NCBI GenBank assembly: GCA_017440275.1
Contig: JAFSHN010000013.1
Location: 1-50,989 of the forward strand
From: Bacillota bacterium
GTDB taxonomy: Bacteria > Bacillota > Clostridia > Peptostreptococcales > Anaerovoracaceae
Length of the DNA: 50,989 nt
Direction of reading: 5' to 3'
The position numbers and the translations under genes are program-made. How positions within the stretch are numbered: the first letter of the stretch is position 1; every line of letters starts with the position of its first letter. Below, one piece after another: positions 36,673 through 45,036 of the stretch. The notes beneath the pieces are model-generated. The model had not been told where the DNA came from. It did no database searches and saw only the letters and a list, made by a program, of their open reading frames with translations.

Positions 36673-37878
36673 ATGGCTTATTCAGAACTCATCAAAGATT
36701 TCGGCAAAATCCGAGATTATATGCGACAATTTTATATTTACGGATTCCGTGGCCGCGGCGAGATGGGGGATAAGTCTGACCGTTCTTACGATAACGAAAA
36801 ACGCCGCATTGAGAGTTGGATGGGGGACTATATGTCCTTCAGACAAGAGCCATCAGGGAAGAAAAGCTTTATATCTATGGAAAGCAAAGACCTGATCCAT
36901 AATCCACTTTACAATGCGTTCAAGGCGAAGAGTTTTACAGATAAGGATATAATGCTCCATTTTTATATATTGGACATATTGGAACAAGAAGCTTTCTCTG
37001 CAGGAGAAATTGCAGATATTATTGCCACTGACTATATATCGGAATTTGACGATGTATTGCAGCCTGATGAATCTACAATCAGAAAAAAACTAAAAGAGTA
37101 CGAAGGCCTGGGACTTGTGAAGAGTTCCAAAGAAGGCCGCAAGGTGGTTTACGAGAAGTGCTTGGCTACAGTGGATTTGGAAGAGTGGAAGTCCTGCGTC
37201 AACTTCTTTTCCGAACTGGATCCATGCGGAGCAATAGGTTCATTTGTGCTTGACCGAATGGAAGATGTGGATGACGCTTTTTGGTATAGACATCATTATT
37301 TGCTTTATGCACTGGACAGTCAGATTCTTTATCAGCTCCTTGAAGCTATTTCAGAAGGAAAAAATGTGGAGTTGGTATTAGCAAATATTACCCACGAAGT
37401 ATGCCCTCTTAAAATCCTTGTGAGCAGCCAGACCGGCCGCAGATATTTGATGGCATATAACTATTTCCTGAGAGATATAAGCATTTATCGCATAGATAAT
37501 ATCAAGAATGTGGTTCCTAAAAACGAGGAAGTAAAAAAAGACAAATATCTGGAACTTGCTCAAAAAAAGCAGAAGTATATATGGGGAGCTTCCATTGGAA
37601 ATGGCAGACAGATTGACCATCTGGAAATGACTCTTTCCATTGAAAAGGGAGCAGAACATATACTTGATCGACTTTTCAGAGAAAGAAGGCAGGGAAGAAT
37701 TGAGCTTCTAGGCAACGGTAATTACAAATTTGTTATTGATGTTTATGATGCGTGGGAACTGATCCCATGGATCAGAACTTTTATGGGACGAATAGTAAAA
37801 CTTGAAACCACCAACAATGAGGTTCAAGAGGCTTTTTACGAAGATTTGACTCGAATGAACGATCTTTACGGAGAATAG
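36673..37878 (+). CDS. WYL-domain protein (first of a pair)
   Basis: 401 residues. The N-terminal 160 residues are helical with a winged-HTH-like part (QPDESTIRKKLKEYEGLGLV, about 134-153). The WYL-type domain (about 235-300) has strands and the RRYLMAYNYFLRDISIYRID segment. WYL proteins bind nucleic acid or nucleotide-like ligands and regulate transcription or CRISPR and defence genes. It is followed 3 bases later by a second WYL protein, so the two probably form a hetero-complex or act in series. Confidence 0.78.
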   Translation: MAYSELIKDFGKIRDYMRQFYIYGFRGRGEMGDKSDRSYDNEKRRIESWMGDYMSFRQEPSGKKSFISMESKDLIHNPLYNAFKAKSFTDKDIMLHFYILDILEQEAFSAGEIADIIATDYISEFDDVLQPDESTIRKKLKEYEGLGLVKSSKEGRKVVYEKCLATVDLEEWKSCVNFFSELDPCGAIGSFVLDRMEDVDDAFWYRHHYLLYALDSQILYQLLEAISEGKNVELVLANITHEVCPLKILVSSQTGRRYLMAYNYFLRDISIYRIDNIKNVVPKNEEVKKDKYLELAQKKQKYIWGASIGNGRQIDHLEMTLSIEKGAEHILDRLFRERRQGRIELLGNGNYKFVIDVYDAWELIPWIRTFMGRIVKLETTNNEVQEAFYEDLTRMNDLYGE

Positions 37879-37881
37879 CTG

Positions 37882-38790
37882 ATGTTTAATGAGATTTACG
37901 GAAACTATTACAATATAATGAGTAGCTTGATCGGTGAGGCTCAGGCCGGAACTTTGACCGGAAGACGCATTCTTGATGTGGTAATGGAAAAAGGTTTCGG
38001 AGAAAGCATTATGACCATACCCGATGCTGTGAAAAGATGGGGACTCATAACTGATGATATGGAGACTCCTATTGTTTCCGTGCCTTCAAAATCTTTGACG
38101 ATTCTGGAAAAACGCTGGCTTAAAGCACTTTTAGGTGACCCTCGTATCAAATTATTCGGAGTAAGCGATGCAGGTCTTGAAGATGTAAAGCCTCTCTATG
38201 AGCCTGAAACCTTTGTTTATTTTGATAAATATAAAGACGGAGATCCATACGAAAAAGAGGATTATATTGCGAACTTTAAGACGGCACTTGCAGCAATCAA
38301 AGAAGCTAGGGCTATCCGCGTAAAGTTTGCCACAAGACATCAGCAGATGAGAGAATGGACTTGCATGCCTATTGCAATGGAGTTTTCGGAAAAAGACGAC
38401 AAATTCCGCTTGATTGTGGCAACAGGCCGCCGCAAATCCTCGATAAATGTGGCGAGAATAAGCCACATTGAAATGCTGGATTACGGCGAAGAAATCGCCA
38501 TCGATATAGAGCCTAAAGAAAAACTGGTTACAACAATTTTTGATGAGCGAAACGCCCTTGAACGTGCAATGCTCCACTTCTCAACCTTTGAAAAAGAAAC
38601 CATCAAAAATAGTGAAACTGAGTACACTATGAATTTGTATTACGACAAAGAAGACGAGACAGAATTACTTATAAGGATTTTGCAGTTTGGACCATTCATT
38701 AAAGTTCACGAGCCTGAGTCCATGGTAGGACTTATAAAGGAGCGTCTGAAAATGCAATCGCAATTTAACGATATGATAGATTGGAGATAA
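37882..38790 (+). CDS. WYL-domain protein (second of a pair)
   Basis: 302 residues. It begins with a short helical segment (FNEIYGNYYNIMSSLI), then a domain of about 90 residues, then a WYL-like part with the segment IRVKFATRHQQMREWTC (about 150-166) and RLIVATGRRKSSINVARISH (about 177-196). There is no evident N-terminal HTH, unlike its partner. It overlaps nothing but is 3 bases from the first WYL gene and 1 base from the aldo-keto reductase gene, all one operon. Partner regulation is inference. Confidence 0.72.
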   Translation: MFNEIYGNYYNIMSSLIGEAQAGTLTGRRILDVVMEKGFGESIMTIPDAVKRWGLITDDMETPIVSVPSKSLTILEKRWLKALLGDPRIKLFGVSDAGLEDVKPLYEPETFVYFDKYKDGDPYEKEDYIANFKTALAAIKEARAIRVKFATRHQQMREWTCMPIAMEFSEKDDKFRLIVATGRRKSSINVARISHIEMLDYGEEIAIDIEPKEKLVTTIFDERNALERAMLHFSTFEKETIKNSETEYTMNLYYDKEDETELLIRILQFGPFIKVHEPESMVGLIKERLKMQSQFNDMIDWR

Positions 38791-39970: not shown

Positions 39971-39975
39971 ATAAA

Positions 39976-40006
39976 AACAGACCGCTGCAGGCGGTCTGTT
40001 TTTTTA
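39976..40006 (+). terminator. Rho-independent terminator
   Basis: 11-bp stem AAACAGACCGC/GCGGTCTGTTT with TGCA loop, then T-run. Confidence 0.85.
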
Positions 40007-40196: not shown

Positions 40197-40270
40197 ATAG
40201 CAAACACAAACACTTCGCAACTTTTTTTCCAAGATTCCCCACCACCTCCTATGCTATTATCAAACTACGA

Positions 40271-40335
40271 AAGGCGCATACAGCAAAAGCGGCAAAACAT
40301 TGGAGGTTTACAGGTTCAAATCCTGGCTGCGCCTT
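40271..40335 (+). ncRNA. tRNA-like RNA element, copy 1
   Basis: A perfect 8-bp closing stem AAGGCGCA/TGCGCCTT (40271-40278, 40328-40335) encloses a T-arm-like hairpin: CAGG (40311-40314), seven-base loop TTCAAAT, CCTG (40322-40325). GGTTCAAATCC is the classic tRNA T-loop box. The region where D and anticodon arms should be is only 31 bases and does not fold like a tRNA, and no CCA follows. It is therefore a tRNA-like RNA or a decayed tRNA rather than a working tRNA. The 5' part matches copy 2. It precedes the vWA-RtcB operon, where tRNA-like Y RNAs are known in other bacteria. Confidence 0.6.
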
Positions 40336-40353
40336 GGGACAACTTAATACTTA

Positions 40354-40413
40354 AAGGCCCATGCAGCAAATAGGGGATGTACATATTATGAGAGAAGATA
40401 ACATTTGGGCCTT
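40354..40413 (+). ncRNA. Related RNA element, copy 2
   Basis: An 8-bp closing stem AAGGCCCA/TGGGCCTT (40354-40361, 40406-40413). Its first 18 bases (from 40353) equal those of copy 1 (from 40270) except two positions: AAAGGCCCATGCAGCAAA against AAAGGCGCATACAGCAAA. One of these lies in the stem, and its partner on the 3' side has changed to match (G-C in copy 1, C-G in copy 2). The inside differs: an ATGT/ACAT pairing replaces the T-arm. It ends 33 bases before the vWA start codon. Confidence 0.55.
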
Positions 40414-40446: not shown

Positions 40447-41910
40447 ATGTTGACACTTTTGAAGAATGAATTTAATAAAACTTACACAGAAAACGGCGCT
40501 GTGACACATCAGACTACCATGTCCGATTGTCTTGATTTCTTCGCAAGTGCGGGAGCTCTCAGACAGAGCTCCCCTGATGAAATCATATTGCGCTTCATGA
40601 GAGCCTACGCTGAAGACGGCGATATGGCCATGAAGATTCTTTTTTATGCGAGAGACGTTCGCGGCGGACTCGGCGAAAGAAGAACTTTCAAAACTATCAT
40701 CAGATGGCTGGCTGAAAATCATCCGGAAAGCGTAGAAAAGAATATGAAGTACATAGCTGAATTCGGCAGATACGACGACCTGTTGGTGTTGCTCGATACA
40801 AAGTTCAAAGGTCAGGTGATTGAATACATCAAAGAGCAGCTTGCTGAAGACATTCTGAATATGAGCAAGGGAGAAGGCATTTCTCTTATGGCTAAATGGC
40901 TGCCGTCCATCAACGCTTCAAGCGAAGAAACTGTAAAGCAAGCGAAAAAAATTGCTAAGGCTCTCGGTATGAACTATGAGGACTACAGAAAAGTTCTGAC
41001 CAGATTGAGAAAGCACCTCAGAATTATCGAAAATAATCTCAGAACAAGGGATTACACCTTCGATTATTCCAAACAGCCTTCTAAGGCCATGTTCAAGTAC
41101 AGAAGTGCTTTTTTCAGAAATGACAGGGAGCGCTACGAAGACTTCTTGGCCAAGGTTTCAAGAGGAGAGACAAAACTGAATACAGGTAACGTAATGCCAT
41201 ACGAAATTATTGCACCGGTGGTTTCAGGAAGATATAATAAAGAAATACACGACACAGGAGCTCTTAATGCCACATGGATGCATCTGGAAGACTTCACAGA
41301 TGGAAGAAATGCCATAGCTGTAGTTGACGGATCCGGTTCTATGTACTGCGGAGGCAATCCTATGCCTGCAAGCGTGGCACTTTCGCTGGGATTATACCTT
41401 GCAGAAAGAAACACAGGCGTATTCAAAGACCATTTTATCACGTTCTCCCATTCACCAAGACTTGTTGAGGTGAAGGGAAAGAATATTGTGGAGAGGGTTC
41501 AGTATGCGATGAGCTTTAATGAAGTAGCTGATACTAACATTGAAGCCGTATTCAAACTGATTCTGAAGACTGCAGTTTTAAATGGTGCAAAACAGGCAGA
41601 ATTGCCTGAAACAATTTATATAATTTCCGATATGGAATTCAACCAATGCGCAAGCGGTGCAGATATGACCAACTTTGAAAACGCAAAAAGGCTTTTCGAA
41701 AAGTACGGATATAAACTGCCGCAGGTTGTTTTCTGGAACGTAAACAGCAGAAACATTCATCAGCCTGTGACTATGAATGAGCAGGGTGTGGTACTGGTAT
41801 CAGGCTGCACACCTAGAATCTTTTCACAGATTGCGGCGGGTAACTTCTCGCCTTATGAATTTATGCTGGATGTAATTAACTCGGAAAGATATGCGGTTAT
41901 TGCCGCATAG
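40447..41910 (+). CDS. DUF2828-type HEAT/vWA protein, Ro60(TROVE)-like
   Basis: 487 residues, GGGAGG before ATG 40447. The N-terminal 270 residues are helical repeats (REMRAYAE-like, ARDVRGGLGERRTFK at about 78-92, KYIAEFGRYDDLL at about 101-113). The C-terminal vWA domain has the MIDAS motif VVDGSGSM (about 293-300) and the later acidic position in YIISDMEF. Ro60/Rsr proteins have the same order, with HEAT ring then vWA, and bind Y RNAs and misfolded RNAs. This is probably the DUF2828 branch rather than true TROVE, from memory. It is 10 bases before rtcB and directly after two structured RNAs. Confidence 0.8.
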   Translation: MLTLLKNEFNKTYTENGAVTHQTTMSDCLDFFASAGALRQSSPDEIILRFMRAYAEDGDMAMKILFYARDVRGGLGERRTFKTIIRWLAENHPESVEKNMKYIAEFGRYDDLLVLLDTKFKGQVIEYIKEQLAEDILNMSKGEGISLMAKWLPSINASSEETVKQAKKIAKALGMNYEDYRKVLTRLRKHLRIIENNLRTRDYTFDYSKQPSKAMFKYRSAFFRNDRERYEDFLAKVSRGETKLNTGNVMPYEIIAPVVSGRYNKEIHDTGALNATWMHLEDFTDGRNAIAVVDGSGSMYCGGNPMPASVALSLGLYLAERNTGVFKDHFITFSHSPRLVEVKGKNIVERVQYAMSFNEVADTNIEAVFKLILKTAVLNGAKQAELPETIYIISDMEFNQCASGADMTNFENAKRLFEKYGYKLPQVVFWNVNSRNIHQPVTMNEQGVVLVSGCTPRIFSQIAAGNFSPYEFMLDVINSERYAVIAA

Positions 41911-41920
41911 GAGGCAATAA

Positions 41921-43015
41921 ATGATTAAAATCACAGGTAAATATAACGAAGCGCTGTGCTTCACTCCTGAAATGGAGGAAAAAGCAGCACAGCAAATCAA
42001 AGAATTTTGTGACATGGAAAGCTTTGCCGGCAGCAAAATCAGAGTAATGCCTGACGTACACGCCGGCAAAGGCTGCACCATCGGCACAACTATGACAATT
42101 GTTGACAAAGTTATTCCTAATATGGTGGGCGTTGATATAGGCTGCGGCATGGAAACTGTTCAGATTGCCGAAAAAGAAATCGACTTCAGAAAACTGGACA
42201 GCATTGCAATTCGTGACATTCCATCAGGCTACAATGTGAGAAAGGAAGCGCACCCAATCGCTGATACCATCGACTTGGAATCACTTAGATGTAAGGAACA
42301 CGTTGACCTTGACCGTGCGAAAAAGAGTATCGGTACGCTCGGCAGCGGCAACCACTTTATTGAAGTTGATAAAGACGAGGAGGGGTCACTCTACCTGGTA
42401 GTGCATTCCGGTTCACGTCATCTCGGTACGCAAGTAGCTGAATATTATCAGAAAGCCGGATATGATGCCTTGGCAGATGAAACAATTCCAAAGGATTTGG
42501 CATACGTGAGGGGTCAGCTTTTTGAAGATTATATTCACGACATGAAGATTGTTCAGGAATTTGCCGTACTCAATCGAAAGGCAATGGTGGAGGAAATCAT
42601 TGAAAAACTAGATCTTACAGTAGTAGATCAATTTACAACAATCCATAATTACATAGACACAGACAATATGATTCTGAGAAAAGGCTCTGTATCTGCTCAA
42701 AAAGGTGAAAAAATCCTTATTCCAATTAACATGAGAGACGGTTCTTTAATCTGTATCGGCAAAGGCAATGAGGACTGGAACTATTCAGCACCTCACGGCG
42801 CCGGCAGACTTTTGAGCAGAACGGAAGCAAAAAAAAGTCTTTCAATGGAAGAATACAAGAAGGAAATGGCCGGTATCTATTCAACATCCGTCAAATTGTC
42901 AACCCTTGATGAATCTCCTATGGCATACAAAGATATGAGTGAAATCATCAGTGAAATCGAGCCAACGGCTGAGATTATCAAAAAAATCAAACCTGTTTAT
43001 AACTATAAGGCGTAA
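41921..43015 (+). CDS. rtcB: RNA-splicing/repair ligase RtcB
   Basis: 364 residues, somewhat shorter than E. coli RtcB (408). Metal and GMP motifs are all visible: MPDVHAGKGC (about 43-52), VGVDIGCGM (about 69-77), GSGNHFIE (about 140-147), HSGSRHLG (about 160-167), KGSVSA, INMRDGS, and the guanylylated-histidine region SAPHGAGR (about 291-298). It joins 2',3'-cyclic phosphate and 5'-hydroxyl RNA ends using GTP and manganese. No archease or RtcA is nearby. The operon partner is the vWA protein 10 bases upstream. AGGAGG sets the start. Confidence 0.92.
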   Translation: MIKITGKYNEALCFTPEMEEKAAQQIKEFCDMESFAGSKIRVMPDVHAGKGCTIGTTMTIVDKVIPNMVGVDIGCGMETVQIAEKEIDFRKLDSIAIRDIPSGYNVRKEAHPIADTIDLESLRCKEHVDLDRAKKSIGTLGSGNHFIEVDKDEEGSLYLVVHSGSRHLGTQVAEYYQKAGYDALADETIPKDLAYVRGQLFEDYIHDMKIVQEFAVLNRKAMVEEIIEKLDLTVVDQFTTIHNYIDTDNMILRKGSVSAQKGEKILIPINMRDGSLICIGKGNEDWNYSAPHGAGRLLSRTEAKKSLSMEEYKKEMAGIYSTSVKLSTLDESPMAYKDMSEIISEIEPTAEIIKKIKPVYNYKA

Positions 43016-43096: not shown

Positions 43097-43990
43097 ATGA
43101 TCAGTAATCTTCAGGCATTAAAATATTTTGAGGCTGTGGCAAGACACGAACATTTTACTAAAGCGGCCAACGAACTTTATGTTTCTCAGCCAACACTCAG
43201 CAAGAACATTGATGCATTGGAAAAAGAAATAGGAGTCGTACTTTTTGAAAAACGCGGACGAAATATGTATTTGACTCCATATGGCAAAATGCTTCGTGAT
43301 TATGTGCAGCGTGGAATAGGTGAGATAGATAAAGGCGTTGAAATGATTCAGTCCATATCCAATGAAAAGTCGGGTATGATTAGTATCGCAACAATCCATT
43401 CAAAAGGCTCCTTTAAGTTGCCTCAATACATCAAGGGCTTTTGTGACAAACACCCCGATATTCGTTTTAAATATTCTCAGAAGTCAACTCGTAAAATTCT
43501 GGATGAACTTCTAAGCGGGGATGTTGAAATTGGATTCTGCAGTAATTATGACGAAAGTGAAGAATATAATTCACTGCATAGAGAAGAGATTTTGACTGAA
43601 GAATTATGCCTTATCGTGCACAAAGACCATCCTATGGCAAACAGGGAATTTGTGGCCTTTGATGAACTTCTTGAAGAAGAATGGATAGGATATAGCGATG
43701 ATACGGGAATGTCCAGAGCTATTAAAGATGTTATTGGAGATGGCGAAATAAGCCAAAATTTGAGATTCGCCTACCTTGCATCAGAAGGTTCTGCTGTCAT
43801 CGAACTTGTTCAGGCAGGTCTTGGAATCAGCATTATTCCTAAGAACACAAAACTGAATTTCGATGACATTGTAAAAGTACAGTTTTCCAGCCCATATCTC
43901 TACAGACATATTTATATGGTGTGGAACAGTGACTGTACATTGTCACCGGCAGCAAAAGCATTCAGAAAGTATATTTTAAGTTTAAACTAA
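43097..43990 (+). CDS. LysR-family transcriptional regulator (first of a tandem pair)
   Basis: 297 residues. The N-terminal winged HTH is FTKAANELYVSQPTLSKNID (about 19-38) and LEKEIGVVLFEKRGR. The C-terminal part is the usual two-lobed substrate-binding domain (about 90-297). It aligns without gaps to the next gene: by my hand count about 60 of 297 positions differ (roughly 80% identity), so this is a recent duplication. LysR proteins sense a small molecule and usually activate adjacent genes, here probably the CoA-transferase operon. Confidence 0.9.
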   Translation: MISNLQALKYFEAVARHEHFTKAANELYVSQPTLSKNIDALEKEIGVVLFEKRGRNMYLTPYGKMLRDYVQRGIGEIDKGVEMIQSISNEKSGMISIATIHSKGSFKLPQYIKGFCDKHPDIRFKYSQKSTRKILDELLSGDVEIGFCSNYDESEEYNSLHREEILTEELCLIVHKDHPMANREFVAFDELLEEEWIGYSDDTGMSRAIKDVIGDGEISQNLRFAYLASEGSAVIELVQAGLGISIIPKNTKLNFDDIVKVQFSSPYLYRHIYMVWNSDCTLSPAAKAFRKYILSLN

Positions 43991-44142: not shown

Positions 44143-45036
44143 ATGATTAGCAATTTTCAGGCATTGAAGTATTTTGAAGTAGTGGCAAGGCACGAACACT
44201 TTACCAAAGCTGCCAATGAACTATATATTTCACAATCTACTCTCAGCAAAAACATTGATGTACTAGAGAAGGAAATAGGAGTAGTTTTATTCGAAAAACG
44301 TGGGCGAAATATGTATCTGACACCTTATGGCAAACTGCTGAGGGACTATGTACAGCGCGGTATGGGAGAGATAGACAAAGGTGTAAAAATGATTCAGTCC
44401 ATGTCCAACGAAAAGTCCGGCATGGTAAGGATTGCCACAATTTATTCAGCAGGTTCTTTTATGCTGCCGCAATATATAAAAGGCTTTTGCGAAAAGCATC
44501 CTGATGTCAGATTTAAATATTCTCAAAAACCTACATACAGAATACTGGAGGATTTGCTGAGTGGGGATGTTGAGATTGGTTTTTGCAGCAATTTTGAAGA
44601 AAGCGAAGAATACGCTTCACTGCACAGAGAAGAAATTTTCACAGAGGAATTGTGCCTCATTGCCCACAAGGACCATCCTGTATCTAAAAGAGACTCTGTG
44701 GCCTTTGACGAACTTGTCGAAGAAGAGTGGATTGGATACAGCGGAGATACGGGTATGTCCACTGCAATTATGGATATTGTAAGAGGCGCAGGAATCAGTC
44801 AAAAACTCAGATTCTCATATCTGGCTTCAGAGGATTCAGCCATAATAGGCCTTGTACAGGCAAATCTTGGTATCAGCATCGTTCCAAAGGACACAAAGCT
44901 TCCGTCAGATGATATAGTTAAAATTAAATTTTCAAGACCGTATCTGTACAGACATATTTATATGGTGTGGAACAGCGAGTATACTATGACACCGGTGGCA
45001 AAGGCATTTAGGAAGTATATACTAAGCGTAGATTAG
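44143..45036 (+). CDS. LysR-family transcriptional regulator (second of a tandem pair)
   Basis: 297 residues, same domain order as the first copy. The recognition helix differs at one place (ISQSTLSKNID against VSQPTLSKNID). Most other changes lie in the ligand-binding lobes (for example around 95-107 and 195-235), so the two may sense different ligands while reading similar DNA. It has its own promoter and terminator and lies directly upstream of the CoA-transferase operon. Confidence 0.9.
   Translation: MISNFQALKYFEVVARHEHFTKAANELYISQSTLSKNIDVLEKEIGVVLFEKRGRNMYLTPYGKLLRDYVQRGMGEIDKGVKMIQSMSNEKSGMVRIATIYSAGSFMLPQYIKGFCEKHPDVRFKYSQKPTYRILEDLLSGDVEIGFCSNFEESEEYASLHREEIFTEELCLIAHKDHPVSKRDSVAFDELVEEEWIGYSGDTGMSTAIMDIVRGAGISQKLRFSYLASEDSAIIGLVQANLGISIVPKDTKLPSDDIVKIKFSRPYLYRHIYMVWNSEYTMTPVAKAFRKYILSVD

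Follow-up and report, generated by a model that had tools for sequence, protein, structure and literature searches.

Tandem stem-CAGCAA elements beside a Ro-like DUF2828 gene as probable members of a wide family of small noncoding RNAs in bacteria and phages

The window, a 50,989-nucleotide stretch of a Bacillota bacterium (contig JAFSHN010000013.1, our C59, of assembly GCA_017440275.1, a genome that is 75% complete), carries on its forward strand, in this order, an aldo/keto reductase gene, a hairpin resembling an intrinsic terminator (39973..40003), two RNA elements, the gene of a Ro-like protein with DUF2828 and DUF7788 (vWA) domains (40447..41910) and the gene of the RNA ligase RtcB (41921..43015). 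The DUF2828 protein, which we predict to be the RNA partner of the elements, bears the PHROG label 'RNA-binding protein'. Farther upstream lies a pair of regulator genes on the same strand, the first of WYL type (36673..37878; PADLOC WYL E 1e-15, Pfam WYL below cut-off) and the second of WYL/WCX type (37882..38790; PADLOC WYL E 3e-8, Pfam WCX below cut-off), the latter product being 41% identical to a protein of the related locus L010. Downstream, 43097-43990 and 44143-45036 encode two neighbouring regulators of LysR type, apparently a tandem duplication, the Pfam scan covering the first of them. ARAGORN found no tRNA gene and no complete cloverleaf in the window, and an Rfam scan gave no family over its cut-off in the window; around the elements a single weak match came up, and it is irrelevant.

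Element 1 (40271..40335, + strand) is closed by a perfect 8-bp stem between 40271-40278 and 40328-40335, and element 2 (40354..40413, + strand) by another between 40354-40361 and 40406-40413. In both, the 5' strand of the stem is followed by two bases and then by CAGCAA (40281-40286 and 40364-40369, respectively). The flanks of element 1 read AAGGCGCA (5') and TGCGCCTT (3'), and those of element 2 AAGGCCCA and TGGGCCTT. The preliminary description of this DNA had reported both perfect stems as well as a G-C pair of copy 1 that is a C-G pair in copy 2, and both observations are borne out, the latter as a double change; of the first 18 bases, said to be shared at 16 positions, 15 agree on recount. 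The T-arm-like hairpin with a TTCAAAT loop that it had noticed in copy 1 is also present (CAGG-TTCAAAT-CCTG, 4 bp, 40309..40326, + strand), and T-arms recur in the elements of other arrays. It is the sole tRNA part of copy 1, and none was seen in copy 2. The CAGCAA that closely follows the stem's 5' strand and defines the family presented below had escaped the preliminary description, as had the likeness to a class of Dictyostelium RNAs. A -10-like hexamer, TATTAT, lies 10 bases 5' of element 1 (40255..40260, + strand) and may belong to a promoter, judging by its letters; a consensus scan gave no sigma-70 promoter.

Taken by itself, the evidence from the window is weak. Single-sequence folding lends no support (z of -1.38 and -1.00 for copy 1 at two lengths, -0.38 for copy 2), and shuffled versions of the whole leader fold at least as well (z 0.50). 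When the intergenic region was shuffled 5000 times with its dinucleotides preserved, 137 of the shuffles contained at least two disjoint 8-bp inverted repeats of such spacing. Two copies of a stem followed by CAGCAA arose in 1 of 20000, a figure for a motif picked after the relatives had been seen. It is the comparison with relatives that decides the case, and chance is very unlikely because the elements are conserved elsewhere.

The layout of stem and CAGCAA was first noticed by eye, always 5' of DUF2828: at two loci from Ruminococcaceae, in the phages FADO (Bacillus) and AG20 (Listeria) and on a plasmid of Jeotgalibacillus. We then scored each hexamer in the flanks of DUF2828 (up to 2.5 kb to either side) by whether a perfect 7-bp stem ended 0-3 bases 5' of it. 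Near 22 DUF2828 loci CAGCAA was the top hexamer (42 of 73 sites with a stem, in 15 of the 22 loci). With the six loci previously seen by eye left out, it stayed at the top in the 16 held-out loci that remained, from viruses and a plasmid (30 of 51 sites, in 10 loci, against a background of 4.7%); six of the 16 held no perfect-stem CAGCAA site within 2.5 kb of DUF2828. The P-values of these hexamer tests are naive, given the kinship between loci and the coding sequence within the flanks. DUF2828 itself was matched in 682 of 50697 phage records. Two Bacillus plasmids, NZ_CP076118.1 and NZ_CP106792.1, have a DUF2828 match of 45.2%, the same as the FADO-like phages, and may therefore be phage-plasmids.

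The preliminary description had pointed to related DUF2828 loci as the place where the stems should recur, and there they do. Searched at the protein level, 17 of 391 genomes from the class of the window (Clostridia, judging by the named relatives) have a DUF2828 match at E <=1e-30, and we fetched 14 of these loci, leaving out the window itself, one partial locus and one at 31% identity. In all 14, elements immediately precede DUF2828 or the pair RtcB-DUF2828. CAGCAA occurs 42 times in the intergenic stretches, set by hand from the fetched loci, and 37 of these sites come with a perfect 7-bp stem (6.8% for the background of all hexamers), against 0 of 1 on the other strand. These loci hold 29 distinct stems with 2-4 Watson-Crick types at each of the seven positions, so that the stem pairs covary. 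They are not all independent, because the L063 array equals that of L005 at 161 of 162 bases, which leaves 13 new loci of the 14, and because L053 and L061 resemble L010. Our hand list comprises 37 same-class elements of 46-118 nt, one G-U pair (L054) included, of which 33 start with AAG, 33 end with CTTG and 23 end with CTTGT. A second stem-CAGCAA site at 3636-3745 of L064 (DUF2828-oriented) passes the rule and falls below the score limit of the list. The stretches examined around a divergent DUF2828 (L003/L028, 30% identity) showed no array. SAM riboswitches were seen in L055 (2112-2198, minus) and L057 (7097-7181, minus), in the loci as fetched; on the DUF2828-strand orientation, that of L055 lies ~160 bases 3' of DUF2828.

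For a set of 24 short elements, 95.8% of the stem cells are paired, compared with 28.6-44.2% in slid controls, and neither the covariation score nor the paired cells were reached in any of 500 shuffles. Double changes occur in all 7 stem pairs, a single measure that 43 of 500 shuffles equal. As the elements were chosen for having stems, covariation gauges here the variety of the stems and not their presence, which rests on the hexamer tests and on the count of same-class sites. A covariance model, R1, matched 17 of 18 DUF2828 records at E <=0.0021, of which 18 records 12 had supplied training sequences; among the six that had supplied none, five matched at that threshold. Vibrio phage D490 has a DUF2828 gene, and its sole R1 hit (E 0.24) overlaps that gene itself. 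In seven named phages R1 agrees with DUF2828, with matches in all three that carry it (KVP40 E 2.4e-5, ValKK3 E 5.5e-6, and Felix O1, kin to an R1 training phage, E 6.9e-7) and in none of the four that do not (T4, SPO1, phiKZ and K; best E 0.22). The distance from R1 match to DUF2828 is ~7-9 kb in KVP40 and ValKK3 and tens of kb in G099, and some records (G099, GAP32) have R1 hits solely far from DUF2828. In Cronobacter phage GAP32 (NC_019401.1, L020), several R1 hits and a YrlA-like hit lie at 305-312 kb, and DUF2828 at 106 kb.

In bacterial genomes, R1 alone is too unspecific. Among 61 relatives it also matched three other genomes at E <=0.05 (G060, G068 and G010, the last at 25.9 bits). We regard two of these matches as chance, since, read from the translations, the G060 hit (37.7 bits) lies inside an S-layer-like protein gene and the G068 hit (31.2 bits) inside an RsgA-like GTPase gene. 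The window scores 38.4 bits, compared with those 37.7 and 31.2 bits, and given such chance hits an E of ~0.001-0.01 is weak. Both window elements were R1 training sequences; in their own genome they score E 0.0055 (element 1) and 5.5e-5 (element 2).

The protein next to the elements appears to be related to Ro60. All 21 aligned members match Pfam DUF2828 and DUF7788, and D294, S296 and S298 of the vWA DxSxS motif, presumably the metal site, are invariant in all 21. In a profile comparison made against TROVE proteins alone, DUF2828 matched the three used with a probability of 89.6 (E 1.9e-6), and the match runs collinearly through both domains. The two-domain layout with vWA thus resembles that of TROVE/Ro60, whereas none of the 21 DUF2828 proteins matches Pfam TROVE (PF05731). 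A profile search of solved structures placed TROVE entries at E 0.41-0.42, behind a ribosomal protein, and is uninformative. Mycobacteriophage records already annotate the DUF2828 protein as 'Ro-like RNA binding protein'. We consider DUF2828 related to Ro60/TROVE by profile and a candidate Ro-like protein.

By comparison, then, the family has a terminal stem, usually of 7-10 bp, whose sequence changes while its pairing is kept, CAGCAA 0-4 bases 3' of the stem's 5' strand, and an insert that ranges from a short loop through a T-arm to a tRNA-like domain; copies are usually tandem, on the strand of DUF2828 and mostly close to its gene. Under a strict pattern, 10 of the 18 arrays of the first round have an element with a T-arm; a slightly wider pattern finds one in 9 of 14 same-class arrays. 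In the 37 listed elements, the T-arm pattern occurs 11 times in 3048 bases, compared with 9 times in 99235 bases outside (one strand). The elements of L010, L056 and L062 contain a tRNA-like domain of ordinary order (45.7, 48.5 and 32.2 bits with Rfam tRNA; cut-off 29), and ARAGORN found no tRNA in L010. Similar elements at L010 1894-1988, L053 2439-2533 and L061 2201-2295 (the latter two DUF2828-oriented) enclose a tRNA-like stretch with a T-arm, and by eye the anticodon-like loop is different in each.

From these sequence comparisons, we think it probable that both window elements are small noncoding RNAs and belong to a widespread family whose partners are the DUF2828 proteins, the vWA-containing relatives of Ro60/TROVE. 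They are most likely Y-RNA-like partners of a Ro-like protein, to which they are predicted to bind. The suggestion of the preliminary description that they partner the vWA protein thus gains from the comparison, which also finds tRNA-like parts in some members, while its special tie to RtcB does not.

It is unlikely that the elements are simply Y RNAs of the known YrlA type, even though the two have much in common: a closing stem, a tRNA-like module in some members, and a gene near a Ro-like protein (Rsr/Ro60 for YrlA) and sometimes RtcB. The long phage elements (GVEsP-1, Halena) have the order T-arm, acceptor, D-arm of the YrlA model and are found by that model, Rfam RF02553, below its cut-off of 69 bits (E 7.5e-11 and 7.5e-9, respectively). 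G099 (E 4.1e-11) and GAP32 (E 1.4e-9) are also matched below the cut-off, in the same region as their R1 hits. However, none of the 18 records reaches the cut-off, 13 of 14 control genomes also match at E 10, and the window region has no match. The elements carry CAGCAA on the stem side where the YrlA consensus starts acggCgaAUGC, and the gene beside them codes for DUF2828, whose link to TROVE is by profile only, rather than for a TROVE-domain Ro60. Several same-class elements, moreover, carry the T-arm just ahead of the 3' strand of their terminal stem, and the arrays consist mostly of elements that lack a tRNA-like part, the T-arm pattern being absent from 26 of the 37 listed ones.

We consider it quite improbable that the elements act solely in cis, as leader structures (an attenuator or a protein-responsive operator) that control the DUF2828-RtcB message and yield no free RNA. 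Their position directly 5' of DUF2828 or RtcB in the 14 same-class loci would suit such a role, and a Ro-like protein that regulates itself would use the same binding site. Against this, the elements lie 3' of the DUF2828 gene in mycobacteriophages, SEP9 and SP22, amid tRNA genes in SP22 and ~200 kb away in GAP32, and they have tRNA-like inserts and up to 7 listed units per locus.

The other reading put forward in the preliminary description, in which the RNAs serve RtcB as substrates or sensors and do not partner the Ro-like protein, we hold to be very unlikely. RtcB adjoins the array in the window, in L010 and in 7 of the 14 same-class loci, but the RNAs are present in all 14 fetched stretches and RtcB was found in only those 7, implying that the RNA follows the Ro-like protein. 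The RtcB count applies to the fetched stretches; of the other seven, L054 and L058 end <200 bases from DUF2828, and the rest ~1.8-2.4 kb after it. Both WYL regulators are found in 8 of the 14. Finally, broken tRNA genes or mobile repeats, which the T-arms and the adjoining tRNA genes of some phages might suggest, are scarcely credible as an explanation, since the stems covary, the motif is kept across distant phages and bacteria, the held-out tests oppose it, most elements lack a tRNA part, and in their own genome R1 matches nothing but the two window copies at E <=10 (150 scored of 1841 candidates).

The short phage members of the family resemble the Class I RNAs of Dictyostelium (RF01414). 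According to one account (PMC7919456), Class I RNAs, 42-65 nt long in D. discoideum, start with AAG, end with CUGU and are closed by a 6-bp stem, whose 5' strand adjoins an 11-nt motif with nearly invariant T3, C6, C9, A10 and A11; their genes are often clustered. The account mentions four interacting proteins, naming Rnp1A, an RRM protein, and reports that Class I RNAs were not found outside social amoebae, Myxococcus being one bacterium named as searched (PMC7919456). Likewise, the elements described here have a short end-closing stem with compensatory changes (7-10 bp compared with 6 bp in the amoebae), a conserved motif beside the 5' strand of the stem (Class I model consensus CCUUACAGCAA), and, in the same-class set, the frequent AAG starts and CTTGT ends counted above. 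Many phage elements read CTTACAGCAA or CTAACAGCAA at the 11-nt motif, in which CAGCAA itself was a selection rule (set A2). On the other hand, position 3 is A in both window copies and T in the amoebae, many elements are longer than Class I RNAs, and the known amoeba binder is Rnp1A, an RRM protein.

RF01414, an Rfam model built without these data, gave eight places at E <0.005 in the 18 records, and seven of them are elements that R1 also finds, six of these being R1 training sequences. The remaining place, W14 1734-1773, corresponds to no listed element and was set aside. At R1 places in the named phages, the best RF01414 score was that of ValKK3 (31.8 bits), with 27.4 bits for KVP40. T4 (NC_000866.4, 132052-132103, minus) has a hit of 24.3 bits and E 0.0024, which we take as chance; hits near this E mean little, because T4 has no DUF2828. 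At E 10, 8 of 14 control genomes match. The cut-off of 41.5 bits was reached in none of the 18 and none of the 7 records, and RF01414 has no match in eight same-class loci or in the window region. In these sequences, common ancestry and convergence look alike. We put forward as a tentative and somewhat doubtful proposal that Class I RNAs are a eukaryotic branch of the phage and bacterial RNA family with a Ro-like DUF2828 partner; if true, the partner of the amoeba Class I RNAs, binding via the stem and CAGCAA, would be a DUF2828 or Ro-like protein. In the open-access literature, a search for a link between Class I RNA and Y RNA found nothing related, and one for Dictyostelium and TROVE gave no useful title among the matches listed.

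If the elements are Y-RNA-like partners of the DUF2828 protein, the RNA would be cut from the operon leader or start there, and the stem with CAGCAA would be the handle that the Ro-like protein binds. In known systems the ring formed by Rsr is held by the Y RNA stem, and the Deinococcus Y RNA tethers Rsr to PNPase (PMC7790460, PMC8394870). By analogy with Y RNAs, the insert may be the working end, as in Y RNAs a tRNA-like module gates the ring or tethers it to another enzyme. The Salmonella rsr-yrlBA-rtcBA operon responds to broken tRNA (PMC7790460). Encoded behind WYL regulators and beside RtcB, the particle of the window probably acts on damaged tRNA, and the upstream WYL-type regulators would fit an inducible damage response.

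We found no open-access paper that treats RtcB and DUF2828 together, and the open-access mentions of DUF2828 are, by their listing, in plant papers. The abstract of a 2014 survey of Y RNAs by Chen reportedly counts more than 250 species of bacteria and phages with a likely Y RNA near Ro60; some of the phage elements may therefore already be in print. The stem with CAGCAA offers a simple, testable signature for candidate RNA partners of the DUF2828 family. It would extend the Ro/Y-RNA idea to proteins still named for a domain of unknown function, and would place such RNAs in well-known phages, among them a Listeria phage, Felix O1, KVP40 and mycobacteriophages. For the Class I RNAs of social amoebae, it may offer a mechanistic lead.
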